Under the pieces are notes generated by a model. The model was not told where the DNA came from and searched no databases. It saw only the letters and a program-made list of their open reading frames with translations. Made by a program: the position numbers and the translations under genes. Shown one piece after another: positions 1,507-62,093 of a DNA stretch of 64,000 bases. Position 1 is the first letter of the stretch; every line of letters begins with the position of its first letter. This stretch comes from Chloroflexota bacterium (GTDB taxonomy: Bacteria; Chloroflexota; Dehalococcoidia; Lucifugimonadales; Australimonadaceae): the NCBI GenBank assembly GCA_028874795.1, contig JAPPHT010000056.1, forward strand, positions 124,001 to 188,000, in the 5' to 3' direction.

Positions 1507-1525
1507 TGACACGCGCCCCTTGCGC
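1507..1525 (+). repeat. Dispersed 19-bp block, copy A
   Basis: TGACACGCGCCCCTTGCGC. It matches the copy at 31551 in 17 of 19 positions and sits between cfa and nrdA. Unlike the copies at 31551 and 60491 it has no TGAGC repeats behind it. Confidence 0.5.
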
Positions 1526-1741: not shown

Positions 1742-4141
1742 ATGACTTATGTCGTCAATCTCGATCAGGCTCGCGCTGGGACGCCGGAGCAGGCCCCGCC
1801 GGACTCTGCAACGTCCACGACCATGCACGTCCGCAAGCGGAACGGAGGGCTCGAACCCGCCGACGTGATGAAGATCGTTCGCGCCGTCGAGCGCTCCTCC
1901 GGGGCACTGGAGAGCGTCGACCCGCTCCGCGTCGCCACCCGCACTATCAGCGGACTGTACGACGGCGCAACCACCCGGGAGCTGGACGAACTCTCCATCC
2001 GCACCGCCGCGTCGCTCATCGCCGAGGAGCCGGAGTACTCCAAGCTCGCCGCCCGTCTGCTTGCCGTCTACATCGACAAGGAGGTCCGCAACCAGGACAT
2101 CCACTCGTTCTCGCAGTCCGTGAAGGCGGGGCACGCTCTCGGATTGATCAACGACGACGTCGCCGCCTTCGTCACCGCCAACGCGCGCAAGCTGGACGAT
2201 GCCATCAGGTCCGAGCGCGACCAGCTCTTCGAGTACTTCGGCATCCGCACCCTGTACGACCGCTACCTCCTGAAGCACCCGTCCGGCAGGGACAGCATCG
2301 AGACGCCGCAGCACTTCTTCCTCCGCATCGCCTGCGGGCTCGCAGAGAGCCCCGCCGACGCCATCGACTTCTACGAGCTGATCTCCAGCCTCGACTACAT
2401 GCCGAGCTCCCCCACCCTCTTCAACTCCGGCACCCGCCACTCGCAGATGTCGTCCTGCTACCTGCTCGACTCGCCCCAGGATGATCTGGAGGCCATCTAC
2501 AACCGCTACACGGACATCGCCAAGCTCTCCAAGTTCGCGGGAGGAATCGGCGTCTCCTTCTCGCGCGTGCGCTCGCAGGGCTCGCTCATCGCGGGGACCA
2601 ACGGCACGTCCAACGGCATCGTGCCCTGGCTCAAGACGCTCGACTCGTCCGTCGCCGCCGTCAATCAGGGCGGCAAGCGCAAGGGCGCCGCGTGCGTCTA
2701 CGTGGAGAGCTGGCACGCCGACATCGAGGACTTCCTCGAGCTCAAGAACAACACCGGCGACGAGTCCCGGCGCGCGCACAACCTCAACCTCGCCAACTGG
2801 GTGCCGGACCTCTTCATGCAGCGCGTCGAGGAGGACGGCGTCTGGTCGCTCTTCGACCCGAAGGAGCTGCCCGAGCTCGTCGACACCTACGGCGAGGAGT
2901 TCGAGCGCATCTACACGCAGGCCGAGGCCGAGGGCCGCTTCGAGCGACAGTTGCCCGCCCGCGAACTGTACGGCCGCATGATGCGCACGCTCGCCCAGAC
3001 CGGCAACGGCTGGATGACCTTCAAGGACACCGCCAACCGCAAGTCCAACCAGACCCTGCTGCCGGAGAACGTCATCCACCTCTCCAACCTCTGCACAGAG
3101 ATCCTGGAGGTCACCAACAAGGACGAGACCGCCGTCTGCAACCTCGGCTCGCTCAACCTCGGCCACTTCGTCACGGAGGACCGCGCGTTCGACTACGATC
3201 GCCTGCACCGCGCCGTGAAGACCGCCGTCCGCTACCTGGACCGCGTCGTGGACATCAACTATTACCCCACCGGCGCCGCGGCCTACTCCAACAGCAAGTG
3301 GCGGCCCGTCGGCCTCGGCGTCATGGGCCTGCAGGACGTCTTCTTCAAGATGCGCATGCCGTTCGACAGCCAGGAGGCCATCGACCTCGGCGCGCGTATC
3401 CAGGAGGAGGTCTACTACGGCGCGCTCGACACCTCCTGCGCGCTTGCGGAGGAGCGCGGGGCCCACGAGACGTTCAAGGACACGCGCGCTGCGAGCGGCG
3501 ACCTGCAGTTCGACTTCTGGGGCGTCACCCCCAGCAGGCCGGACTGGCCGGAGCTGCGCGAGCGCATCAAGCGCTTCGGCCTGCGCAACTCCCTGCTCAT
3601 CGCCATCGCGCCCACCGCCACCATCGCGTCCATCTGCGGCGCCTACGAGTGCATCGAGCCACAGGTCTCCAACCTCTTCAAGCGCGAGACGCTCTCCGGC
3701 GAGTTCCTCCAGATCAACCACTACCTCGTGAGTGACCTCAAGGAGCGCGGGCTCTGGACGGAGGCCATCCGCAACCGCATCAAGCTCAGCGACGGCTCCG
3801 TGCAGTACGTCGACGACATCCCGGACGACCTGAAGCGGCTCTACCAGACCGCCTGGGAACTGCCGCAGAAGGCGCTGATAGACATGGCCGCCGCCCGCGG
3901 CCCCTACATCGACCAGAGCCAGTCCCTCAACCTCTTCATGGCCGCGCCCACCATCGGCAAGCTCTCCTCCATGTACCTCTACGCCTGGAAGACCGGCCTG
4001 AAGACCACCTACTACCTCCGCTCCCGCCCGGCAACGCGCATCACCCAGACCACCATCGCCGTCGCCGAGAAGGAGACCACGGACCAGGACGCCATCGCCT
4101 GCTCCCTGGAGAACCCGGAGACCTGCGAAGCCTGTCAATAG
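1742..4141 (+). CDS. nrdA: Class Ia ribonucleoside-diphosphate reductase, alpha subunit
   Basis: Catalytic large subunit that reduces ribonucleoside diphosphates to deoxyribonucleotides, together with the NrdB radical subunit. The 799-residue protein begins at ATG 1742, with GGAGG six bases upstream; an upstream TTG at 1715 is less likely. An ATP-cone (about residues 22-115) gives allosteric activity control. Active-site residues are visible: C239 (SSCYL), N449-L-C451-T-E453 (thiyl radical Cys with Asn and Glu) and C466 (AVCNLGS). The C-terminal tail carries the re-reducing pair C795 and C798 (ETCEACQ). nrdB lies 148 bp downstream on the same strand. An NrdR box pair stands upstream. Confidence 0.95.
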   Translation: MTYVVNLDQARAGTPEQAPPDSATSTTMHVRKRNGGLEPADVMKIVRAVERSSGALESVDPLRVATRTISGLYDGATTRELDELSIRTAASLIAEEPEYSKLAARLLAVYIDKEVRNQDIHSFSQSVKAGHALGLINDDVAAFVTANARKLDDAIRSERDQLFEYFGIRTLYDRYLLKHPSGRDSIETPQHFFLRIACGLAESPADAIDFYELISSLDYMPSSPTLFNSGTRHSQMSSCYLLDSPQDDLEAIYNRYTDIAKLSKFAGGIGVSFSRVRSQGSLIAGTNGTSNGIVPWLKTLDSSVAAVNQGGKRKGAACVYVESWHADIEDFLELKNNTGDESRRAHNLNLANWVPDLFMQRVEEDGVWSLFDPKELPELVDTYGEEFERIYTQAEAEGRFERQLPARELYGRMMRTLAQTGNGWMTFKDTANRKSNQTLLPENVIHLSNLCTEILEVTNKDETAVCNLGSLNLGHFVTEDRAFDYDRLHRAVKTAVRYLDRVVDINYYPTGAAAYSNSKWRPVGLGVMGLQDVFFKMRMPFDSQEAIDLGARIQEEVYYGALDTSCALAEERGAHETFKDTRAASGDLQFDFWGVTPSRPDWPELRERIKRFGLRNSLLIAIAPTATIASICGAYECIEPQVSNLFKRETLSGEFLQINHYLVSDLKERGLWTEAIRNRIKLSDGSVQYVDDIPDDLKRLYQTAWELPQKALIDMAAARGPYIDQSQSLNLFMAAPTIGKLSSMYLYAWKTGLKTTYYLRSRPATRITQTTIAVAEKETTDQDAIACSLENPETCEACQ

Positions 4142-12163: not shown

Positions 12164-14374
12164 CTAACCGGAGAGCCGACCCCAGAACTGCGTGATCGTC
12201 TCCCTGCCCTTCAGGATGTCGGGGATGAAATCCCCCAGCACAGGGTCTATCCACGGGATGTGGATGACTTCGTCGAAGAAGCCGTAGATGAGCGCGACGA
12301 AGACGATGAGCCATCCCAGGGCCGCCCACCAGCGAACGTGTCCGAAGAAGAAGAGGTAGAGGAAGACGTAGGCCGGGAGAGCGATCTGGAAGCCGATGAG
12401 CCAGATCGCCAGCACGAGTCCGAACGTGGTGCCGATGGCCTTGACCGTGCGCAGCATGAGGACGCGGCGGTCGTCGTCGGTTCGGGTCCTGCCGATGTCC
12501 ATAATGCGTCCGGCGCCGGACGGGGGAGAGACGAGGTGGGACACCGCGTAGGCGCCTACTAGAGCAAGCCCGACAACGGTGATGACACGAGGCAGGCGCG
12601 CCGCCTGGCTCGTCCACTCGAACGTCTGCCAGAACGTGAAGGCAAAGGCGAACGTCAAGAGAGCGATGAAGATGCCGCTGGGCGTTGGCCGCAGGAGGCT
12701 CAGCAAGGGCGGGCGGGACCTCGATGTTGCGGTCTCTGCCCGGGGCGGTTCCGGAGCGTCTTCACTCGCGCCGGCAGGCGGAGAAGGAGCGGTTTCGGCA
12801 CGGGCTGCGAACTCCGCCTCCTGCCGCTGCATGGTGCGGTTCACGCTGCGCTGCATGCGCACCGTATAGGCAGCGGTGCCCACTGCGATGAGGATGATGA
12901 TGATGACGGCAGGTCGCGTGAAGACGCCTTCGGTCGGGTTCGAGAAGTTCACCCAGTCAAACGCGCCGCTCGCGATGCCGTAGTACCGCTCGATGATGCC
13001 GCCGAGGATGACGGCGATGATGATGGGGGGACGCGGCCAACCGTACGATTTCATGAAATAGCCGAGCGCGCCGAACGCCAGCATCACCACGAGGTCGTAG
13101 ATCGATCGGTTCGCCTGGAATGCCGCGATCGTCATCACGGCGAGGATGATGGGAACGAGGATGTTGGGACGGACGAATGCGATGCGGGTGAGGACCGGCG
13201 TGAACCCGAGCGCAAGGCCCGTGGCGAAGACGTTCGCCATCACCAGCGAGAACGCTATCGTCATGGTGAGCGGCAACTGGCTGTTCAGCATATCCGGGCC
13301 CGGGCGCACGTCGAGGACGATGAGCAGACCGATGAAGAGCGCCATGCCCACTGAACCGGGCACGTTGAAGAACAGCGTGGGCACGAGCTGGCCGCCGTCC
13401 ACGGCGTTGTTCGCCGACTCCGGCGCGATGACGCCTCTTATGTCCCCGGTCCCGAATGTCTCCGTCCCTCCGCGCACTGTCTGGCGCGCCGAGGCATACG
13501 ACAGCCACTGCGCCAGCGAACCGCCGATGCCCGGCAGGAGCCCGACGAAGACGCCCATCGCAGCGGAGCGTATGACGAGCAGCCAGTTCCGCAGCACGGC
13601 AGCCATGCCCTCCCGACGCTGCGCGGACGCATCGAACTGAGCGGTCTGGGCGCGGCGCGCTATGGAGACGTCGCTGACGACCATGTCGAAGAACTCGGGG
13701 ATGGCGAACAGCCCGATGACGACCGGGATGATGTGGATGCCGTCCCAGAGATAGTCCTGCCCGAACGTCAGTCGGTGCGCGCCCGTGGCGTCGTCGTATC
13801 CAACGCTGGCTATGAGCAGGCCGAACGCGCCCGCGATGAGGCCCCGCAGGAGCGCTCCGCTGCTGACGACGCCGACGACCGCGATGGCCACGAGGCCCAG
13901 CACGAAGAACTCCGCCGCGCTGAACGTATTGACGACAGGCCTCGCAACCGGAATGGTGACAAAGAGGAATACCGCGCCGATGATGCCGCCCAGCAGCGAC
14001 GCGAAATAGGCGGCGGAGAGTGCCACCCCCGCCCTGCCCTGCCGGGCGAGCGGGTTGCCGTCCAGGATCGTCGCCTGGCCTGATGTCGAGCCGGGCATCC
14101 CAAGCAGCACCGCCGGGAGCGTGTCGCCCGTTGGAACCGTCGCCACCATGCCGACGGCCAACGGAAGCGCGATGTACGGGTCGAGCCCGTACGCGAAGCC
14201 GAGCAGCACGATGAGGCTGGGCACGGCGCCGCCCGGCATCGCGCCGTTCAGCACACCCACCACGACCCCCACGATGAGCGCGAGTATGGGCCTCCAGTTG
14301 GCGAGGCTGCTGAAGGCCTCCCCGCTCGCTTCGAACATCGCGGGGAAGCCTTCCAGGATCGAGTCGATGAACAT
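12164..14374 (-). CDS. TctA-TctB fusion permease of a TTT transporter
   Basis: A 736-residue inner-membrane protein. Residues 1 to about 505 form the large permease TctA with many transmembrane helices and its conserved loops (GAMPGGAVPSLIVLLGFAYG, LLGMPGSTSGQATILDGNP, GLLPGIGGSLAQWLSYASA). A polar linker follows (about 510-560, rich in Ala, Glu, Pro). The last 175 residues have four hydrophobic helices and match the small subunit TctB. In most bacteria these are two genes. The ion-coupled transporter takes up carboxylates with the TctC protein encoded just downstream. The stop of the Rieske gene is 6 bp before its start. Confidence 0.88.
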   Translation of the reverse strand: MFIDSILEGFPAMFEASGEAFSSLANWRPILALIVGVVVGVLNGAMPGGAVPSLIVLLGFAYGLDPYIALPLAVGMVATVPTGDTLPAVLLGMPGSTSGQATILDGNPLARQGRAGVALSAAYFASLLGGIIGAVFLFVTIPVARPVVNTFSAAEFFVLGLVAIAVVGVVSSGALLRGLIAGAFGLLIASVGYDDATGAHRLTFGQDYLWDGIHIIPVVIGLFAIPEFFDMVVSDVSIARRAQTAQFDASAQRREGMAAVLRNWLLVIRSAAMGVFVGLLPGIGGSLAQWLSYASARQTVRGGTETFGTGDIRGVIAPESANNAVDGGQLVPTLFFNVPGSVGMALFIGLLIVLDVRPGPDMLNSQLPLTMTIAFSLVMANVFATGLALGFTPVLTRIAFVRPNILVPIILAVMTIAAFQANRSIYDLVVMLAFGALGYFMKSYGWPRPPIIIAVILGGIIERYYGIASGAFDWVNFSNPTEGVFTRPAVIIIILIAVGTAAYTVRMQRSVNRTMQRQEAEFAARAETAPSPPAGASEDAPEPPRAETATSRSRPPLLSLLRPTPSGIFIALLTFAFAFTFWQTFEWTSQAARLPRVITVVGLALVGAYAVSHLVSPPSGAGRIMDIGRTRTDDDRRVLMLRTVKAIGTTFGLVLAIWLIGFQIALPAYVFLYLFFFGHVRWWAALGWLIVFVALIYGFFDEVIHIPWIDPVLGDFIPDILKGRETITQFWGRLSG

Positions 14375-14380
14375 GCCGGG

Positions 14381-15748
14381 CTATGCTCGCTGCAGCCGCA
14401 CTTCTTCGTAGCGGCGGTAGATCTCCAGTATCTGGTTCAGCGCGGGACTGTACCTGTCCATGTTGTAGTGACGCAACTTGAACGTGGCGTCCTCACCCAG
14501 CACCGCGGTGACGTCTCCCTTCTCTTCAAGCGTTATCCGGTGGTCGCCCTTCTCGGAGAAAGTGGCGGGGGTGATCGGGCCCGGCCCGACGTTGACCGGA
14601 AGGTCGATGCGCTGGTTCTCGGCGGGGTCGCGGTACACGTTTATCGGGTCGCCGCCGTCCTGCACGATCTTCATCTGGTCCATCAGCAGCTTGCGGAACA
14701 TGATGACGCCACGGTCGGAGACGCCGAGCCGCTCGTTCTCGCGGTCGGCTATCGCGCCCTGGCTCCACCACGCCGCCAGGTCCTGCGCGAGTACGTAGTC
14801 GGCGATGGGGCGCCCCGCGTCGTCGAACAGCGGGTGTTCGAAGTAGGGCACGTAGTCCTGCTCCGGGACCTCCACGTCCGGACCCGGGCAGTAGGCCATG
14901 TAGTCCAGGTGCAGCGTGTGCTCATCGTCCACCGGCACGCGTATCTGCAACTCGCTGCGGATCTTCCCTCCGAGGCGAACGAAATACGGGAACACCAGCG
15001 GATGGCCGATCGTCCAGTCCGGCGTGTCCTCTGCCTCGCCTTCGCGCAGGCGATGCTTCTGGATGCCGAACTGGTTCACCGTCCACTCCGTCTTCAGGTG
15101 GCGGAGCTTGAACGAGTCCGCATGCGCCTGGGTGATCCTGTCGTATTCGGGGTTGCCGGTGCCCCCGCTCCTGTCCAGAACGTGGTACTCGAACCAGTGG
15201 CCGTGCGTGTACTCGGTGTGCGACGTGTCGACGGAGTTCTCCATGCACTGGAGCCAGTTGGCGTTCAGCTCGACGGCGCCCACGTGCCGGAACGTGTTGT
15301 CCCAGACGAGCACGTCCCAGCGAGGGAGCAGCGGAACGGGCTCCGGGCCCAGGTAGGCGAATATCAGACCGCCCAGCTCCTGCACGGGGTACGACTTGAT
15401 GCGCACCTTCTCGCTGAAGTGCGAGCCCTCAGGCTCCGTCGGCTGGTCGAGGCACTGCCCGTCCACGTCGTACAGCCAGCCGTGGTACATGCACCGCAGG
15501 CCTTCCCGCGTCGGGATGCCGATGGACAGGTCCACCCGGCGGTGCGCGCATCGCCGGTCTACGAGGCCGAGCCTGCCGCTCTTGTCCTTGAACAGCGTCA
15601 GGTCCTCACCGAGCAGCCGCACCGACACGACCGGATCGCGGAGCAGCCGGCCGTTGCTGGTGATGGGCCACCAGTAGCGGCGGAGCAGTTCGCCCATGGG
15701 CGTACCCGCGCCGGTCTGCGTCAACAGTACGTTCTCTTCGGCGCGCAT
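14381..15748 (-). CDS. Rieske non-heme iron oxygenase, alpha subunit (phthalate-4,5-dioxygenase-like)
   Basis: A 455-residue oxygenase component that uses electrons from a separate reductase to insert oxygen into an organic substrate. The Rieske 2Fe-2S ligands are C67-x-H69 (CAHRR) and C86-x2-H89 (CMYHGW). The mononuclear iron site is seen in the ENSVDTSHTEYTH stretch, with two His and the bridging Asp. The product begins with the LTQTGAGTPMGELLRRYWWP signature shared by most other oxygenases in the window. It is sandwiched between a dihydroxyphthalate-decarboxylase-like gene and the TTT permease, which suggests an imported aromatic acid as substrate. The reductase is not encoded nearby. Confidence 0.9.
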   Translation of the reverse strand: MRAEENVLLTQTGAGTPMGELLRRYWWPITSNGRLLRDPVVSVRLLGEDLTLFKDKSGRLGLVDRRCAHRRVDLSIGIPTREGLRCMYHGWLYDVDGQCLDQPTEPEGSHFSEKVRIKSYPVQELGGLIFAYLGPEPVPLLPRWDVLVWDNTFRHVGAVELNANWLQCMENSVDTSHTEYTHGHWFEYHVLDRSGGTGNPEYDRITQAHADSFKLRHLKTEWTVNQFGIQKHRLREGEAEDTPDWTIGHPLVFPYFVRLGGKIRSELQIRVPVDDEHTLHLDYMAYCPGPDVEVPEQDYVPYFEHPLFDDAGRPIADYVLAQDLAAWWSQGAIADRENERLGVSDRGVIMFRKLLMDQMKIVQDGGDPINVYRDPAENQRIDLPVNVGPGPITPATFSEKGDHRITLEEKGDVTAVLGEDATFKLRHYNMDRYSPALNQILEIYRRYEEVRLQRA

Positions 15749-15788
15749 CGGCGCTCCTCCTTCGTCGGGCCTGAACGGACCGTGCGGT

Positions 15789-16781
15789 CTACTGGTCCAG
15801 CGTGTTCTTCGCGAACACGTCCTCCAGCTTCGCCAGCTTGGGCGTAAGGCCCTGCTCGAACGAGTACTGCGCCGCCGTCTCCAGCACCAGCCGGTTCGCG
15901 CGCACCCCGTGCTGCACCAGCGGCTGCTTGAGCGCCGCGCCGCCCTCCGCGTTCACGAGTCCGGTCTCGACGTAGTAGTCCACGTGTTCGGCGCGCTCGC
16001 GGTTGCAGATGTCGTTCGCCCTGTTGAACGCCTTCATCAGGTTGAGCAGCACCCACGGGTGGTCCTCGGCGATCTCCCGCTTCACGACCATGCCGTGGTT
16101 GATGGGGTAGAGTCCCGTCTTCTCGTAGAAGCGGATGCCCTCGGCCCGCGCGTCAGGGAACAGCGGCGCGATGTCCGGATGGCTCCAGAGGTCGGCCGTG
16201 CTGCGGTCGATCAGGTTCGGGTCGACGATGTAGAGAAGCGTCGCCTCGAGCTCGCCGGAGAGCATCATCGAGCCGATGTTCTTCTCCAGCGGTATCTGGT
16301 TCACCGTGACGCCCTTGGGAGGCTTGAACCCGGTGGAGCCGCCGTGGCTCTGCTCAGGCACGCGTTCCATGAAGAACTCCATGTCCTTCGGCTCGACCCC
16401 GAACTCGTGCTGGAGCACGCCGCGCGTCCAGAGCGCCGCGGTCTGCTGGTACTCAGGCACGCCGACGCGCTTGCCCTTCAGGTCCTCCGGCGACTGGATG
16501 CCTGAGTCCTTGCGCACGAGGACGCCCGTGTGGAAGAAGCGGCGCGTCGTGAAGATCGGCAGGCCCACCCACCGCTCGTCGCCCGCCGCCATCGCCATGA
16601 TGAGCGACGAGAACGACATTTCCGAGACGTCGAAGTCGCCGAACTTCAACTGGCGCCAGAACAGCTCGGACGCGTGCACCGGGCTCGGGATGAGCTCGAT
16701 GCCGTCCGGCTTCACGCGACCGTCGTGGATCGCCCACGTCCTGGGGTTGGATGCCATGCCTACGCTGAGCTGAATGTCCAT
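15789..16781 (-). CDS. Periplasmic-binding-fold protein, 4,5-dihydroxyphthalate-decarboxylase-like
   Basis: A 330-residue protein of the type II binding-protein fold (LVRKDSGIQSPEDLKGKRVGV is the hinge signature). It begins directly with MDIQLSVGMASNPRTW and has no signal peptide, so it is probably cytoplasmic and not an ABC solute receptor. This matches the Pht5 group, where the fold has become a decarboxylase of 4,5-dihydroxyphthalate. The adjacent Rieske oxygenase resembles phthalate dioxygenases, which supports that reading. Catalytic residues cannot be confirmed by eye. A cytosolic thiamine-precursor-synthase-like role (THI5/NMT1) is the main alternative. Confidence 0.75.
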   Translation of the reverse strand: MDIQLSVGMASNPRTWAIHDGRVKPDGIELIPSPVHASELFWRQLKFGDFDVSEMSFSSLIMAMAAGDERWVGLPIFTTRRFFHTGVLVRKDSGIQSPEDLKGKRVGVPEYQQTAALWTRGVLQHEFGVEPKDMEFFMERVPEQSHGGSTGFKPPKGVTVNQIPLEKNIGSMMLSGELEATLLYIVDPNLIDRSTADLWSHPDIAPLFPDARAEGIRFYEKTGLYPINHGMVVKREIAEDHPWVLLNLMKAFNRANDICNRERAEHVDYYVETGLVNAEGGAALKQPLVQHGVRANRLVLETAAQYSFEQGLTPKLAKLEDVFAKNTLDQ

Positions 16782-16811
16782 CTGGTTATGCCTCCTCCGG
16801 CTATCGCTGGC

Positions 16812-17861
16812 CTACAGGCCCGATATGAACTGTTCTTCCGTATCCCACTTGCCCACATTGGAGCGCCACACCATGTCTAGGCGCGCCATATCTTCGTCAC
16901 TGAGCGGCGGCGCTCCGGAGCAGCCCGCAGCCTCCTCCAGGTGCGCCATCTCCGAGAACCCTCCCAGCACGGTCGTCACCGCCTCGTCCTGGAGGATGAA
17001 GCGGTAGGCCGCCTGCGAAAGCGTCTGCCCGGAGCGCGAGAGGAAGGCGAACGGCTTCGCTCGTTCCACCATCGCCTGGTACATGTCCGCGTTGCGCGAG
17101 AGTCCGCCGCCCGCGAGCGCGTGTCTGCCGCCACCGCTCACTGCGTGGTCCGTCAGCACGCCGCCGCCGAGCGGGCGTATCGTCGCCGTTCCGATGCCCA
17201 GCTCCTGCGCCCGCCGCAGGAACTGCCCATAGTCGTGCTGCACGTCCAGCCCGTCCGGCGTTGGCAGCCCGGCGGTCGGGTTCAGCAGGTCGTACCACAC
17301 GTTCAGCATGTGGAACTCGCCGGTCTCCATCAGCGCCATCACCGCGTCGGCGTCCGCGTCTTCGTTGGCGAAGCCGAAGAAGCGCGTCTTGCCTGCGCGG
17401 CGCAGGCGTTCCATCCCTTCGAGCGCTCCGCCGGGGCCGAGGTAGTCGTCCAGCCCCAGGTGCAGCCAGCCGGGGACGGTGGTGTCCGTCTCGATACTCG
17501 GCGGATTGTGGATCTGCAGGACGTCGACGTGGTCCACCTGCAGGCGGCGCAGCGAGTCCTCCAGCGATTCGATGACGGCTTCAGCGATGTGATCGAGCTC
17601 GTCCGGCATGATCTCGACCTTCGTCGCGAGGACAGGGCGAAAGCCGATCGCCTTCATCGCCTTGCCGATGTTCTCCTCGGCGAGGCCTTTGCCGTAGTCG
17701 GGAGAGGTGTCGAAGTAGTTGATGCCGAGTTCGAGTGCGCGCTCGATGGCGCGGAGTTGGACGTCCGGCTCGCCCTTGACCAGCAGTCCGGCGTTGTCCC
17801 CGGAGCCGAAGCCGATCTCGGAGACGCGGATGCCGGTAGCACCCATGGTGCGGTATCGCAA
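16812..17861 (-). CDS. Aldo/keto reductase
   Basis: A 349-residue NADPH-dependent reductase with the AKR tetrad visible: Asp in NYFDTS, Tyr in DYGKG, Lys in LATKVE and His in LQIHNP. The barrel start (MRYRTMGATGIRVSEIGFG) and the C-terminal cofactor region (TLSQAAYRFIL, TVLGGFSEMAHLEEA) are present. It lies 30 bp upstream of the binding-fold protein gene and 98 bp downstream of the ketopantoate-reductase-like gene. In this operon it probably reduces or reoxidises an aldehyde or ketone intermediate. D-threo-aldose dehydrogenase-like members are the closest in style. Confidence 0.87.
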   Translation of the reverse strand: MRYRTMGATGIRVSEIGFGSGDNAGLLVKGEPDVQLRAIERALELGINYFDTSPDYGKGLAEENIGKAMKAIGFRPVLATKVEIMPDELDHIAEAVIESLEDSLRRLQVDHVDVLQIHNPPSIETDTTVPGWLHLGLDDYLGPGGALEGMERLRRAGKTRFFGFANEDADADAVMALMETGEFHMLNVWYDLLNPTAGLPTPDGLDVQHDYGQFLRRAQELGIGTATIRPLGGGVLTDHAVSGGGRHALAGGGLSRNADMYQAMVERAKPFAFLSRSGQTLSQAAYRFILQDEAVTTVLGGFSEMAHLEEAAGCSGAPPLSDEDMARLDMVWRSNVGKWDTEEQFISGL

Positions 17862-28144: not shown

Positions 28145-28163
28145 TGACATCTGCCCCTTACGC
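28145..28163 (+). repeat. Dispersed 19-bp block, copy B (left edge of mcrBC)
   Basis: TGACATCTGCCCCTTACGC. It agrees with the copy at 31551 in 17 of 19 positions and overlaps the stop codon of mcrC (28158-28160). With the copy at 31551 it brackets the restriction genes in direct orientation. Confidence 0.55.
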
Positions 28164-29375
28164 TGCAGGTCGCACCTGCCGTGCCTCGCCACGTAACGCC
28201 CTCACTTTGACCGCAAGTTCCCTCACGCGCTCCAGCACTTGTTCGAGCGTGCCGGTGAGATCGAGCGCAGCGACTTCCAGCCGCTTGCCGGAATGCCGCA
28301 CAGTGTACGTCGCAGCGTCCGCCTCACCCTTCGCGTAGACCAGCAACCCGCCCGGCAGATCGAGCGCGGTGGTATACGCCAGCAGCTGGTAGAGGTCGGC
28401 GTTGGGGATGCGCTCATCGCCGATCCGTTTGTACTTGGCATCGCCAACGAACACGACAGACGAACCCTCCCGCCAAACGAGGTCCGGCCTCAGGTGGATG
28501 CGCCCCGCCTCGTCAAGCGAAGGGATGCCGTACTCGCCAAACGTACGCTCCGTAACCCCCAGCGCCTCCCGCAGAGCGACCGTGACGAATTCCTGGAAGA
28601 CCTGGTTCATGTCCATGAGAAAGCCGGACGCGCGCACCTGTCCCCTGTACGCCTCGAACGCCCCGCGACGCAGGATGAGCCGCGCCAGCGTCACCACGCC
28701 GCGGTAGTGTTCGTTCAGCCGGTTGAAGGTAACCTCCGGCACGTCCCCCGACGGAAACTCCTCGTACGACACGTTTTCGAGCATCGCCGCGACCCACCCC
28801 AGGCCGCGCCGCGCATCGGTCGATCGCAGACGCATCCGACCGAGCCGGATGACCGCCGCCTTCACGAGGCGGTTCGCCGGGATGTCCTCGGTGAACTCGT
28901 CGTAGCGCACCTCGACCGGCAGCGGGATGCCGAACCTGCGCCGCACCTGATCGTCGAACCGGATGCGCCCGCGCACGGTGTACAGCGTCTCCTCCTCCGT
29001 GCGGTAGCCGTGCAGCAGCCCGCGCGCGAACGTCCGCCGCGCGGCGGCAACGAGCGCGAGCGCCAGCGCGTCGGGCAGCGCTTCATCTTTGAGGTAGTTG
29101 AATTGACCTTGCTGTCCACGTTCAAGCCGGTCGGTGGCGTAACAGGCGAGCGACAGCAGTTCCGGAATCCCGAGCTTGGGGCGGATGAGCACCGATAGGT
29201 CGCCAACTTCAACCGCGCCGACCCAGGAGCCGGGGGTGAGCGTGTACGTGTCCTCCGCGCCGATGATGCGCTCAATCGTCAGAGACGGCAGCACCAGACG
29301 CAGCGCATCGTGCTCGGCGGACGAGAGGGAGTACGACTCGCTTGGGACGTGTTCTTTCAGGTCAAGCTGGCGCAT
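28158..29375 (-). CDS. mcrC: McrC-family nuclease subunit of a modified-DNA restriction system
   Basis: A 405-residue partner of McrB. N-terminal McrC region (LTPGSWVGAVEVGDLSVLIRPK; LLSLACYATDRL) is followed by VRGRIRFDDQVRRR and a C-terminal PD-(D/E)xK nuclease: RPDLVW and, 12 residues later, VGDAKYKR. McrC supplies the cutting activity and stimulates the McrB GTPase. The start overlaps the 3' end of mcrB by 14 bp, so the two are translationally coupled. The codon and base composition are like the host genome, unlike the N-terminal half of mcrB. Confidence 0.9.
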   Translation of the reverse strand: MRQLDLKEHVPSESYSLSSAEHDALRLVLPSLTIERIIGAEDTYTLTPGSWVGAVEVGDLSVLIRPKLGIPELLSLACYATDRLERGQQGQFNYLKDEALPDALALALVAAARRTFARGLLHGYRTEEETLYTVRGRIRFDDQVRRRFGIPLPVEVRYDEFTEDIPANRLVKAAVIRLGRMRLRSTDARRGLGWVAAMLENVSYEEFPSGDVPEVTFNRLNEHYRGVVTLARLILRRGAFEAYRGQVRASGFLMDMNQVFQEFVTVALREALGVTERTFGEYGIPSLDEAGRIHLRPDLVWREGSSVVFVGDAKYKRIGDERIPNADLYQLLAYTTALDLPGGLLVYAKGEADAATYTVRHSGKRLEVAALDLTGTLEQVLERVRELAVKVRALRGEARQVRPAA

Positions 29376-31446
29376 CGTTCACGCCGGCATCGTCATCCGT
29401 AGCCTCTCCGTGGCCCTGCTGCTCCTCGTTCTCAACTGCCCCGTCGGAAGGGGCAGGTCCCCGGCGCAGCGCGTCGAAGTCAAACTCGCCGAGGCGCCCA
29501 TGCTGCCCGTAGAGGCGTTCCTCAATGTACGGGCGCACGTCGTATTTCCAGATGCGCTCAGCATCAGCAGGGTCGAGGCTGGGATTGTCTTCCTTGTCCT
29601 TCCGCATGAAGTAGCTCGGCCCGATGGAGGCGTGGCGGCCCTCCGGCCTCCCGTCAGCCAGTTTCTCGTTGGCGCGGTCGACAACGTCCGCCACCCATTT
29701 CATGTGGCTGAGGCCATTGGCGTCCAGCCATCGGCGCAGCAGGCCCTTGATGGGTTCCTTGCTCGTGTCGAACTCCACAAAGGAGAACCGGCGGCGCAGC
29801 GCCAGGTCGACGAGCGCGATGGAACGGTCGGCGGTATTCATCGTCCCGATGATGAACAGGTTCTTCGGAAGGGAGAATGGCTCCGCGTCTTCCTCTTGGT
29901 ACTGCAACCGTATCTTCTCGCTGCGGTACTCCAGCAGGAAGTAAAGTTCGCCGAGCACTTTGCCGAGGTTCGCCCTATTGACCTCGTCGATGATGAGGAA
30001 ATGCCTCGCGTTCGGCTCGTTCCGTGCCCGGTCGGCGGCGCTCAGCAGCGGCCCATCCCGCAACTCGAACCCGGCGTGGCCATTCACAAGCACCGGACGG
30101 AAACCCTGCACGAAGTCCTCGTAGGCGTAGGAAGGATGAAACTGCACGAGTTCGACGCTGCCCATTAATCCAGCGAGATGGTTCGCAAGCGACTGCGCAA
30201 CGTACGTCTTGCCCGTGCCGGGCGGCCCCTGGAAGATGACCTGGTTCTTTTCATTGAGGAGCGTGGCGATTTCGTCGAGGAAGGAGACGGGGAGGAGCAG
30301 GTCGTCAGAGAGGGTCTGGAAGTCGGGGGGAGCAACGCCTTCATCCGAGCTGCCCTCTTCGTCACGGTTACCCTTGAGCGCCCAAATCACCGACTGCGCG
30401 TCGAGGCGGTGGCGTAAGGTCAGCCCGCGTTGAGCCGCCTCATCTATGAACCGGTCGAGGAAACGTAGAGCTTGTTCGTACGTTTCCGCTGCTGGTGCAT
30501 TTGGTCTATACCTGTGAAATCCGACTTGTGTATATGCCCATTCCGACAAAGTTTTTTGATATGGTGGATAGTCTTCCGCCTTAATGCCCATTAACAGAAT
30601 GGATATGATATTTGTCTGTCCTGCACGATTCATATACCCAGAGAGGTGTTCTGAAAATCCTTGGACTTGTTCAACTAGTTCTTGTGGGGACCATTGCCAT
30701 AGCTTCCGTAGTGTATCAAGTGCTGATTTAGGTCCCTCTTCTTTGATGTTTATGTCAAGCCATTCTTCAAATCTCTGCAGGGTGCGCCAATTGGCGAGGT
30801 TGTTCTCACCCTTAAGTGCAACTTTCAACTGGCTGCACCAATTATCACTCTCTAGTGAATTAGACAACACCACATGCCGAACCTCTGCGATTCGACGTCC
30901 TATTTCCAACTTGTACTCTATCTCTTCTTCGTCGAGTTTACCCGTACCAATATACGCTTTGGCTCGCCTCACAAATTGATCCCATCGAGAGGCTTCGAGT
31001 GAAGACGCCTCTAGCTCATCAAGGATTGTTTCAATAGCGTCTGCCAAGTCTTCTCCAGGCCGAAAAACTGTGCGTCTCGTAATATGTGGAAGGTCTGCTA
31101 ACGGTATGCCAGTCCGAATCCACTCAATAGGACGACAGTGGGGCATTGGGCATGACGGTTCATAGCGGTACTGCCCAGTCACCTTGCCAAGGTGAGCAAC
31201 ATTGAACGTACCACTAAGTGGTACTAGGATTTCGTCACCTTCTTGAATTTCGTAAATGAAGTCCCATAACTGGTTTGCGCCGGTTGAGGATTGCGGTTCT
31301 GCTGTACGGACACGCGCACGTATCTCATCTATCGGGATGTTGGTAAGGTCTCCCAGTCTGGTTCCCCCAAATCCAATCCCAATAAATTCCTCGCTTTCGA
31401 CTACGCCCTGTATTGTCTCGTGTGCCCGTACCACCCAGTAAGCCAT
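29362..31446 (-). CDS. mcrB: McrB-family GTPase with N-terminal PUA/EVE-like reader domain
   Basis: A 694-residue motor and recognition subunit. Residues 1 to about 110 (YWVVRAHETIQG, GDEILVPL, LGKVTGQYRYEP) look like a PUA/EVE-type domain that reads modified bases. A helical middle part follows. The AAA+ GTPase has Walker A GPPGTGKT (about residue 405), Walker B FLIIDEVNRAN (about 485) and the McrB signature MNTADRS (about 538). The DNA for residues 1 to about 322 is clearly AT-richer (lines near 30.55-30.7 kb are 38-45 % GC) than the AAA+ half (57-65 %). This points to replacement of the specificity half by transfer. Confidence 0.88.
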   Translation of the reverse strand: MAYWVVRAHETIQGVVESEEFIGIGFGGTRLGDLTNIPIDEIRARVRTAEPQSSTGANQLWDFIYEIQEGDEILVPLSGTFNVAHLGKVTGQYRYEPSCPMPHCRPIEWIRTGIPLADLPHITRRTVFRPGEDLADAIETILDELEASSLEASRWDQFVRRAKAYIGTGKLDEEEIEYKLEIGRRIAEVRHVVLSNSLESDNWCSQLKVALKGENNLANWRTLQRFEEWLDINIKEEGPKSALDTLRKLWQWSPQELVEQVQGFSEHLSGYMNRAGQTNIISILLMGIKAEDYPPYQKTLSEWAYTQVGFHRYRPNAPAAETYEQALRFLDRFIDEAAQRGLTLRHRLDAQSVIWALKGNRDEEGSSDEGVAPPDFQTLSDDLLLPVSFLDEIATLLNEKNQVIFQGPPGTGKTYVAQSLANHLAGLMGSVELVQFHPSYAYEDFVQGFRPVLVNGHAGFELRDGPLLSAADRARNEPNARHFLIIDEVNRANLGKVLGELYFLLEYRSEKIRLQYQEEDAEPFSLPKNLFIIGTMNTADRSIALVDLALRRRFSFVEFDTSKEPIKGLLRRWLDANGLSHMKWVADVVDRANEKLADGRPEGRHASIGPSYFMRKDKEDNPSLDPADAERIWKYDVRPYIEERLYGQHGRLGEFDFDALRRGPAPSDGAVENEEQQGHGEATDDDAGVNDAPA

Positions 31447-31867
31447 CGGTTGAAGCCTCTCCTAGGAATCGATCGTCGGTCTATTGAGAACATGCCTTCC
31501 TATAAGCCGACAGTGAGTCTCTATTCTAGACCATGCCTCTTCTATTCTACTGACACCCGCCCCTTACGCCGCTGCCCCCGCCTGCCCTACCATGGTTCTG
31601 CTACGGGACCCCTCGTGGAGGGGCAGGCAGCTCCGCCCGGTGAGGACAGCGCTGCCAGAGGCGGATGAGCATGAATGAGCAGAAATGAGCCAGTTTTTTC
31701 GAGAGTGCTCGTGGGGGCGCCTCTGACGGCGCCGCCCGCAGGGGCGGACCGGCATGCTCATTCCGTTCCATCCGCGCTCGGAAGCGAGCGGGATGTGCTC
31801 ATTACTGGTAGTCTGCCTGCTCATTTGAGTTCCACAGACGCATCATGAAGGAGTAGAAGGAGGCCCC
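31447..31867. other. Intergenic region between mcrB and the VOC gene
   Basis: About 420 bases without a gene. The first 100 are AT-rich like the adjacent part of mcrB and contain TAGAAT-like -10 sequences on the minus strand (near 31525 and 31547) that may drive mcrBC. The AT-rich tract ends at the 19-bp block at 31551, after which the composite repeat element runs to 31824. Confidence 0.6.
31551..31824 (+). repeat. Composite element: 19-bp block plus phased ATGAGC repeats
   Basis: Begins with TGACACCCGCCCCTTACGC (31551-31569). ATGAGC follows at 31665, 31675 and 31685, exactly 10 bp apart, then three inverted copies GCTCAT at 31756, 31797 and 31819. Between them are strong hairpins, for example CCCCTC-GTG-GAGGGG (near 31610) and CGCTCG-GAAG-CGAGCG (near 31775). 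A homologous element with TGAGCC repeats is at 60491. The element ends 44 bp before the VOC gene. Confidence 0.65.
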
Positions 31868-32311
31868 ATGTCCGACGTCAAGCCCATCCCGGACGGCTAC
31901 ACTGCCATCACGCCCTACCTCGTCGTTGAGGGCGCGAGCGCCTACATCGACTTCCTGGCGAACGCCTTTGGCGCTGTGGAGCGCATGCGCATCCCCCTGC
32001 CCGAGGACCTCGTCGCGCATGCCGAGGTCACGATCGACGGCGCCATCGTCATGCTCTCCGACGCGATGCCGCCCGATTCTCCCGCCCAGCCGGCGCACAT
32101 CCACCTCTACGTCGAGGACGTTGACGCCGCCTACGCCCGCGCGGTGAGCGCCGGCGCAACCAGCGACGCCGAGCCCGAGGACCAGTTCTACGGCGAGCGC
32201 ATGGCGCACCTGACCGACCCCCGCGGCATCCACTGGACGATTGCCACCCACATCGAGGACGTGGACATGGACACGCTCACGCAGCGCATGGCGGACATGG
32301 GCATGGGCTAG
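31868..32311 (+). CDS. VOC-family protein, PhnB-like
   Basis: A 147-residue glyoxalase-fold protein of the PhnB/YdhR-like group: ITPYLVVEGASAYIDFLANAFGA, HAEVTIDGAIVMLSDA, HIHLYVEDVDAAYARAVSAGA and FYGERMAHLTDPRGIHWTIATH. The closing ERxxHLxDPxG motif is typical of this group, whose biochemical role is mostly unknown. GAAGGAGG lies ahead of the ATG at 31868. It stands alone between the composite repeat element and a palindromic repeat. Confidence 0.85.
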   Translation: MSDVKPIPDGYTAITPYLVVEGASAYIDFLANAFGAVERMRIPLPEDLVAHAEVTIDGAIVMLSDAMPPDSPAQPAHIHLYVEDVDAAYARAVSAGATSDAEPEDQFYGERMAHLTDPRGIHWTIATHIEDVDMDTLTQRMADMGMG

Positions 32312-60490: not shown

Positions 60491-60714
60491 TGACACCAGC
60501 CCCTTACGCAGACGCCCCACCGCCGCGTACCCTGTCTCCGGAGATTGTCGGCTGAGGGTTGTCCGCTACCGGCGGATGGCAGAAGGGCCAGGGGGCCCAA
60601 AAGGCTCAGAAAGGCTCACTGGACCCTCGAAAGTGAGCCGCTGTGAGCCCCACAGGGCTCACGCCAAGGCCGGGGATCCAGAGGTGAAACGGGCCGAATG
60701 AGCCTTAATGAGCC
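60491..60714 (+). repeat. Composite element: 19-bp block plus phased TGAGCC repeats
   Basis: Begins with TGACACCAGCCCCTTACGC (60491-60509). From 60603 a set of TGAGCC and inverted GGCTCA hexamers follows in pairs exactly 10 bp apart: GGCTCA at 60603 and 60613; TGAGCC at 60634 and 60644; TGAGCC at 60699 and 60709; plus a single GGCTCA at 60656. GTGAGCCC (60643-60650) and GGGCTCAC (60655-60662) form a hairpin. The first hexamer is 112 bp from the block; in the element at 31551 this distance is 114 bp. Confidence 0.65.
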
Positions 60715-60794: not shown

Positions 60795-62093
60795 ATGAGC
60801 AACGTAAACCGCACCCCCGAAGAACAGGCCCTGATGACCAAGGCCGCCGCCGTGCTGCCCGGTGGAACGCTTGGCAACCTCCGACTGGACGAGGAGCACG
60901 CGTTCGTCGTGCGCAACGGCCACGGCTCCCGTGTCTGGGACGTGAGCGGCAACGAGTACATCGACTACCTGCTCGGCTCCGGCCCCATGGTGCTGGGACA
61001 CGCGCACCCGAAGGTGATCGCCGCGGCCACCGAGGCGATGTCGAAGGGCACGACGTTCTTCACCCAGAACGCCTACGCCATCGAACTGGCAGAGCGCATC
61101 GTTGACGCCATGCCGTGCGCTGAGCAGGTGCGCTTCGTCAGCAGCGGCTCGGAGGCCACCTACAACGCGCTCAAGGTTGCCCGGGCGTTCCGCAAGCGCG
61201 AGAAGATACTCAAGTTCGAGGGCGGCTACCACGGCACCCACGACTACTCCCTGATGAGCCTCGCCCCGACCGGCAACACGCCATACCCGCAGGCCGAGCC
61301 CAGTTCAGCCGGTATCCCGCGCGCCATCCAGGAGACCGTCCTCGTCGCCCCGTTCAACGACCTCAACGCCGTCGAGGACCTGCTCGACCGTTACCACGAC
61401 GAGCTCGCCGCCGTCATCGTCGAGCCGGTGCAGCGCACCATCGCCCCGCAGCCGGGCTTCCTGCCGGGGCTGCGCGAGCTCACGAACCGCTACGGCGTCC
61501 TGCTCGTCTATGACGAGGTCGTGACCGGCTTCCGCCTCGCCTACGGCGGCGCGCAGGAGTACTACAACGCAGTGCCGGACATCGCCGCCATCGGCAAGAT
61601 CGTCGGCGGGGGCTTCCCGCTCGCCGCCATCGTGGGACGGCGCGAGATCATGGAGTCCTACGACCAGGGCACTGCCGCGCCCGACGTCTACGTCCCCCAG
61701 AGCGGCACGCTCAACGGCAACCCCGTCGCTGCGGCCGCCGGACTCGCGACCCTGGAGGTGCTGCGCGAGCCGGGCACCTACGAGGCGTACCACGCCCGCG
61801 CCGCCACCCTCCGCAACACGCTCCAGCGCCTCTTCGACGAGGCCGAGGTCCCCGCCCAGGTCAGCGGCATCGACATGATGTTCGACGTCTTCTTCACCGA
61901 GCACCCCATCATCGACTACCGCTCGACGCTCGTGGACAAGACGCTCAACCGCATCTTCGACAACACGCTGCTGGACAACGGCATCCTCAAGTCGCCCGGC
62001 AAGCTGTACGTGGGCGCCTGCCACTCGGACGAGGACATCGAGCGCACCATCGAGGTGTTCCGCATGGGCGTCGCCGCCGTCCGCGACGCGTGA
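60795..62093 (+). CDS. Class III aminotransferase, glutamate-1-semialdehyde-aminomutase-like
   Basis: A 432-residue PLP enzyme. K268 in AIGKIVGGGFP binds the cofactor; the phosphate-binding SSGSEATYNALKVARAF, KFEGGYHGTHD and VYDEVVTGFR are typical of the GSA aminomutase and related beta- or omega-aminotransferase group. True HemL is less likely because no haem genes are near. Start ATG 60795 was chosen over a GTG six codons upstream because of the -10 position. The stop overlaps the next start (TGATG), linking it to an acetyltransferase. Confidence 0.86.
   Translation: MSNVNRTPEEQALMTKAAAVLPGGTLGNLRLDEEHAFVVRNGHGSRVWDVSGNEYIDYLLGSGPMVLGHAHPKVIAAATEAMSKGTTFFTQNAYAIELAERIVDAMPCAEQVRFVSSGSEATYNALKVARAFRKREKILKFEGGYHGTHDYSLMSLAPTGNTPYPQAEPSSAGIPRAIQETVLVAPFNDLNAVEDLLDRYHDELAAVIVEPVQRTIAPQPGFLPGLRELTNRYGVLLVYDEVVTGFRLAYGGAQEYYNAVPDIAAIGKIVGGGFPLAAIVGRREIMESYDQGTAAPDVYVPQSGTLNGNPVAAAAGLATLEVLREPGTYEAYHARAATLRNTLQRLFDEAEVPAQVSGIDMMFDVFFTEHPIIDYRSTLVDKTLNRIFDNTLLDNGILKSPGKLYVGACHSDEDIERTIEVFRMGVAAVRDA

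Follow-up and report, generated by a model that had tools for sequence, protein, structure and literature searches.

The two elements at 60491 and 31551 of the window (the whole 64-kb stretch of DNA analysed here) probably join the promoter of a dispersed regulon to a phased array of sites for a small terminase (TerS); to judge from the sequences of these and related loci, such an element would serve as a pac site of a GTA-like system, with control of the promoter a probable second role. Its first part would be the promoter of a regulon that takes in single-copy phage head genes as well as recA, radA, comM and the ribonucleotide reductase gene; its second part, a set of helically phased short sites, all for the same one of several diversified TerS proteins, which carry an HTH. 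A ring or row of TerS subunits would place an HTH at every turn of the helix, always on the same face of the DNA; the resulting nucleoprotein complex would mark where the large terminase (TerL) begins to package chromosomal DNA; that DNA would enter a particle built from the dispersed capsid, portal and TerL genes; and the complex would probably also regulate the promoter in front of the array. That TerS binds the arrays, that binding starts packaging, and that particles are made is what we infer.

The original prediction described the same 19-bp block, with 18 of 19 positions identical, at the head of both elements, followed by hexamers at 10-bp steps that read ATGAGC in the 31551 element and TGAGCC in the 60491 element. 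The coordinates of both elements and of their hexamers all check out in the window, the blocks differ by one mismatch, and the element-specific hexamers are borne out, as are the inverted copies (Table 1). The pair at 60603/60613 stands in position but not in orientation: it is inverted, GGCTCA, not direct TGAGC. Direct TGAGC starts fall at 31666/31676/31686, 60634/60644 and 60699/60709. Same-strand TGAGC pairs exactly 10 bp apart occur five times in the window, always inside these two elements. Over spans of 240 bp, the motif is most crowded at the 60491 element, where transcription is predicted to start at about 60540.

Table 1. Parts of the two elements, a third copy of the block and the adjoining genes (window positions)
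Feature	Position	Strand	Remarks
60491 element, 19-bp block: upstream box and -35 region (TTACGC, 60504-60509)	60491..60509	+	genus-wide logo
60491 element, -10 element TACCCT, spacer 18 bp	60528..60533	+	129-copy logo
60491 element, first array	60603..60661	.	inverted GGCTCA 60603, 60613, 60656; direct TGAGCC 60634, 60644
60491 element, terminal pair TGAGCCttaaTGAGCC	60699..60714	+	
Class-III aminotransferase gene, downstream of the 60491 element	60795..62093	+	Pfam PF00202, E=1.5e-67
31551 element, 19-bp block, -35 TTACGC at 31564-31569	31551..31569	+	
31551 element, -10 element TACCAT	31588..31593	+	
31551 element, direct array, ATGAGC at 31665, 31675, 31685	31665..31690	+	
31551 element, inverted key copies, GCTCA at 31756, 31797, 31819	31756..31823	-	
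Glyoxalase/VOC protein gene, downstream of the 31551 element	31868..32311	+	Pfam PF00903, E=8.8e-14
Third block copy, 5' of ribonucleotide reductase gene (1742-4141)	1507..1525	+	without TGAGC array

A McrBC-type restriction pair (PF10117 and an AAA_5 protein; 28158-31446, minus strand) adjoins the 31551 element. The end of an McrC-like gene carries another copy of the block, at 28145-28163, without a -10 element; this copy is probably chance or a relic.

With up to three mismatches allowed, the block has four copies in the window (0.05 expected); the genome contains 83, where a reversed-pattern control gives 2. The six species of the genus carry 20-85 copies per genome, reversed patterns again giving almost no matches; other relatives sampled carry at most 12, and the genomes with the block are sponge and marine SAR202/Dehalococcoidia-type MAGs. 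Alignment of 129 copies yields the consensus TGTGACAC(C/G)CGCCCCTTNCGC-ggTCGCCCC...-TACGCTGGTT, with sharp borders: conservation is absent upstream of -2 and past about +46. Within it a -10 element (offsets 37-42: T 81, A 88, C 74, G 58, C 62, T 88%) lies at a fixed distance, TACGCT being separated from TTNCGC by a spacer of 18; the block is therefore a -35 region with an upstream box, the upstream half of a promoter TGACAY-N2-GCCCCTTNCGC-N18-TACGCT. The fixed part thus has a job of its own, as had been proposed, as a promoter element; a fixed end is not supported, as nothing is conserved upstream of -2. Crude codon-usage gene calls place recA, radA, comM/yifB and ribonucleotide reductase close behind the promoter and, in the closed genome G001, radC, rnhB and nrdB. 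The same promoter lies 5' of lone portal genes, lone TerL genes and the capsid module, and elsewhere precedes DnaB-like and recombinase genes. A related promoter motif (TGACACAAGCCCCTCGCGC) is found in other families of the order (L244, L250, L252, L253-L255 and L260 in G021; L248 and L251 in G014), and some of its copies precede another TerS-like family (PHROG 1889/509) or phased arrays.

Behind the promoter, the repeats keep to the helix. On the downstream side of 121 block copies there are 489 cases of the same 5-mer recurring at a distance of 10 bp; on the upstream side, 82. Same-strand distances of the commonest 5-mer of each element have a period of 10.4-10.8 bp, with a phasing power of 109 for distances of 25-130 bp and 53 for 60-200 bp (controls at most 5.2); TGAGC distances cluster at 20-21, 31-32, 41-42, 52, 62, 65-66, 75-76, 86-87, 97, 107, 117 and 127. 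This period is that of B-DNA phasing, not of a plain 10-nt tandem repeat, and is unexpected for single-stranded RNA; protein-bound DNA is therefore indicated. The suggestion of iteron-like sites on one DNA face is supported, as the sites keep to a period of about 10.5 bp for more than 100 bp, and the spacing of the hexamers, far above its controls, holds well beyond the window, phased arrays being found behind many block copies; many others have no array recognised by the scan.

What might occupy these arrays is suggested by the small HTH genes that follow some block copies. They match PHROG small-terminase families (E 1e-6); TerS matches in Pfam fall below the curated cut-offs. A TerS profile search gave 31 matches in the six species (6 in G000, 1 in G001 and, in the remaining four, 7, 5, 8 and 4); a PDB profile search gave no meaningful match, a single-sequence AlphaFold prediction for one truncated TerS was of low confidence (pLDDT 60), and no relative was confirmed in viral contigs. 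In a more distant relative (G036), an array of nine GTGTC sites, 10-11 bp apart, is followed by TerS, its partner, TerL and portal, and the HTH protein is therefore, by synteny, a small terminase. In the genus itself, TerS genes form two-gene operons with the partner, a protein of about 125 aa with a C-x-C-P motif that matched no known family.

Block, array and start codon are adjacent in nearly all of 30 TerS loci examined; thus the two features looked for in a pac site, repeats at or next to terS and a cognate TerS, are both present, the second by the PHROG matches and G036. Within these loci the short word shared by the units of an array, its key, does not vary among the species that share a TerS subgroup but changes from one subgroup to the next: TGAGCAG goes with QISISTLTRW, GAGCGG with EINVSTLRRW, TGAGCC with DISLATLKRW, ATGTT with GIARMTLTRW, TGAGAAG with QIARSTLARW, ATGTC with QITRRTLTRW and GTTGC with RINRTTLHRW. 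The last units at TerS genes double as first codons (for example MSQNEP from ATGAGCCAGAATGAGCCG); the terminal pair of the 60491 element recurs in this place at TerS loci (ATGAGCCAGAATGAGCC = MSQNEP, L284). An apparent leaderless ORF and triple start codons in three frames are explained by such coincidence of array units with the terS start codon. Orphan elements end where TerS coding would begin; they are not simply decayed terS genes, since no TerS remnants lie behind elements other than the TerS loci themselves.

Keys of other elements include TGAGCAG, TGAGCC, TGAGCGG, TGAGACC, TGGCACC, TGTCGGA, TGCAACA and GGCCTC, and orphan keys tend to follow the TerS content of the genome. Two-unit TGAGCAG arrays number 5, 27 and 11 in genomes with that TerS and 4, 0 and 0 in those without; for TGAGCGG the trend is weaker (5 and 1 in two genomes with, 2, 1, 4 and 0 without). 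Of 49 orphans whose key could be assigned, 39 have a matching TerS in the same genome (mean of 31.8 in label shuffles; p=0.006). In this test the keys were read off TerS loci by eye, the 49 include at least three TerS loci, and the MAGs are incomplete. G001, with its single TerS, has arrays of the key of that protein (TGAGCGC) only, among the copies inspected, and TerS count follows block count across species (rho 0.94, n=6). On this evidence the 60491 element, with TGAGCC, would be an orphan array for TerS G000:C2:1833 (L284); the 31551 element, with ATGAGCA, is most likely, though less surely, one for TerS G000:C80:40849 (L272, key TGAGCAG). The gene behind the 31551 element and its orthologues are preceded by ATGAGCA in G000 and G004 (L002, L109) and by ATGGCC in G003 (L084).

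The genes for a particle are those of a phage head. Each of the six species has exactly one HK97-type capsid gene, with an S78 protease gene before it, and exactly one portal gene; TerL is matched at E 8e-34. These head genes stand alone among host genes, with flanking host genes common to G000 and G001, and a capsid dN/dS of 0.1-0.2 indicates purifying selection; single copies, conserved flanks and selection together describe head and packaging genes that are intact and vertically inherited, as in a GTA. The capsid and TerL leaders have a terminator-like hairpin ahead of the gene. The G000 TerL (L063) has its two halves separated by a long in-frame insertion resembling translated dispersed repeat DNA, and at L298 (G001, 12412-17683) part of the capsid gene and a membrane protein gene are tandemly duplicated behind the capsid module.

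The nearest likeness is to the pac site of Bacillus phages SPP1/SF6: in SPP1, pac takes in promoters, direct repeats and the 5' end of the gene for the small terminase, an HTH protein, and the repeats are candidate TerS sites (PMC4737164). Here, in contrast, there is one repeat per helical turn over long stretches, many orphan copies lack terS, and each genome pairs several keys with several TerS paralogues. Phage P1 also has repeated hexamers, TGATCA/G, recognised at its packaging site near pacA; their sequence is different, and P1 is not known to have a diversified set of paralogues. Helically phased direct repeats are known as well from OmpR/PhoB-type operators, and asymmetric sites scattered in transcribed regions from phage stoperators; protein family and gene context differ here. 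RcGTA and CcGTA share with the present system domesticated head genes and accessory promoters elsewhere on the chromosome, and CcGTA is controlled by anti-termination, which the terminator-like hairpin recalls (PMC6854486, PMC11150451). The system proposed here differs in having head genes at dispersed single loci and several HTH-bearing TerS paralogues with apparent specificity. A search of the open-access literature found no report of this array-TerS system.

Several observations count against the favoured reading. The genus has TerS and TerL at separate loci; orphan elements are directed into the following gene (104 against 18), as regulatory elements would be; and neither the TGTCGGA key nor a second family of elements (family II, below) is paired with a TerS. 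Known GTAs show no discrete packaging sites, none being known for RcGTA (PMC6854486), and several TerS proteins bind pac DNA in vitro with little sequence specificity (PMC9611059).

A bolder version of the packaging proposal, which we put forward tentatively and with less than even confidence, supposes that up to eight orthogonal TerS proteins, each with its own phased code, direct packaging from dozens of chromosomal sites, and that codes are exchanged between loci and species. If true, the arrays would also show how TerS reads DNA: as a ring wrapped by it, with an HTH in every turn. How TerS recognises DNA has been described as an unanswered question, threading and nucleosome-like models being poorly supported (PMC9611059). 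Here more than ten pairs of TerS and array occur naturally, their codes different and their phasing strict at 10.5 bp, so that direct tests become possible of specificity, of ring wrapping and of the packaging of host DNA from set sites. They also present an instance in which a family of DNA-binding proteins has diverged along with its operators, in a marine and sponge-associated lineage that is abundant but little studied.

The main rival to packaging is pure transcriptional control by retired terminases: the TerS-like proteins would now be only transcription factors, orthogonal repressors on phased operators behind the regulon promoters, controlling their own genes and those behind orphans. 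The arrays do lie downstream of the -10 element, in transcribed leaders; element and following gene share a strand in 104 of 122 cases; the operons of TerS and its partner are away from TerL; and several downstream genes have a TATACT-like promoter of their own after the element, so that an orphan could be a switchable extra promoter. We nevertheless think this unlikely as the whole story: the capsid, portal and TerL genes stay intact and share the promoter, TerS adjoins TerL and portal in one relative, and the genes behind the elements have no common function.

Improbable, by a good margin of our confidence, is the reading that the elements are transcribed into a structured RNA, or act in cis as leaders, through pairing of hexamers with inverted hexamers. 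Some hairpins exist, such as TGAGCAGT-tgg-ACTGCTCA, and at the orthologous loci L001 and L100 the key changes throughout in paired fashion, from TCCGACA/TGTCGGA to TGCAACA/TGTTGCA. Family II adds to this. Its members, about 300 bp long, lie behind the same promoter, about 20 per genome (L005, L046, L050, L108 and about 50 loci), in this genus only; they consist of CCATAGAC..GTCTATGG palindromes, GGAAGCAGGCCACGGCCT, TTTACTCGTA and four co-varying key copies, with 9-bp units and long co-varying inverted repeats, and folding with RNAalifold shows covariation and compensatory changes in stems. None was found in viral contigs. For the two window elements, structured RNA, one of the possibilities first raised, is not favoured, because DNA binding better accounts for phasing over ten turns and for a key that goes with the TerS subgroup: same-strand 10.5-bp phasing over 60-200 bp is unexpected for single-stranded RNA, unlinked elements have keys that match TerS subgroups, and stems alone leave the one shared key per element unexplained. 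An Rfam scan of the window gave no match at the gathering score.

A genus-specific, MITE-like mobile repeat with transposase sites as its internal repeats is more improbable still, although copies are numerous and genus-restricted and the element type is swapped at orthologous loci (L013/L090, L006/L075): outside the promoter neither ends nor flanks are conserved, different species retain elements at orthologous loci, and the same arrays precede TerS genes, not transposases. Other dispersed intergenic repeats (L004, L006, L008, L090, L101), such as GGTTCGACAGGCTCACCATGAGCGG and CATCCTGTCCATCGATGT, add chance TGAGC/GCTCA matches.
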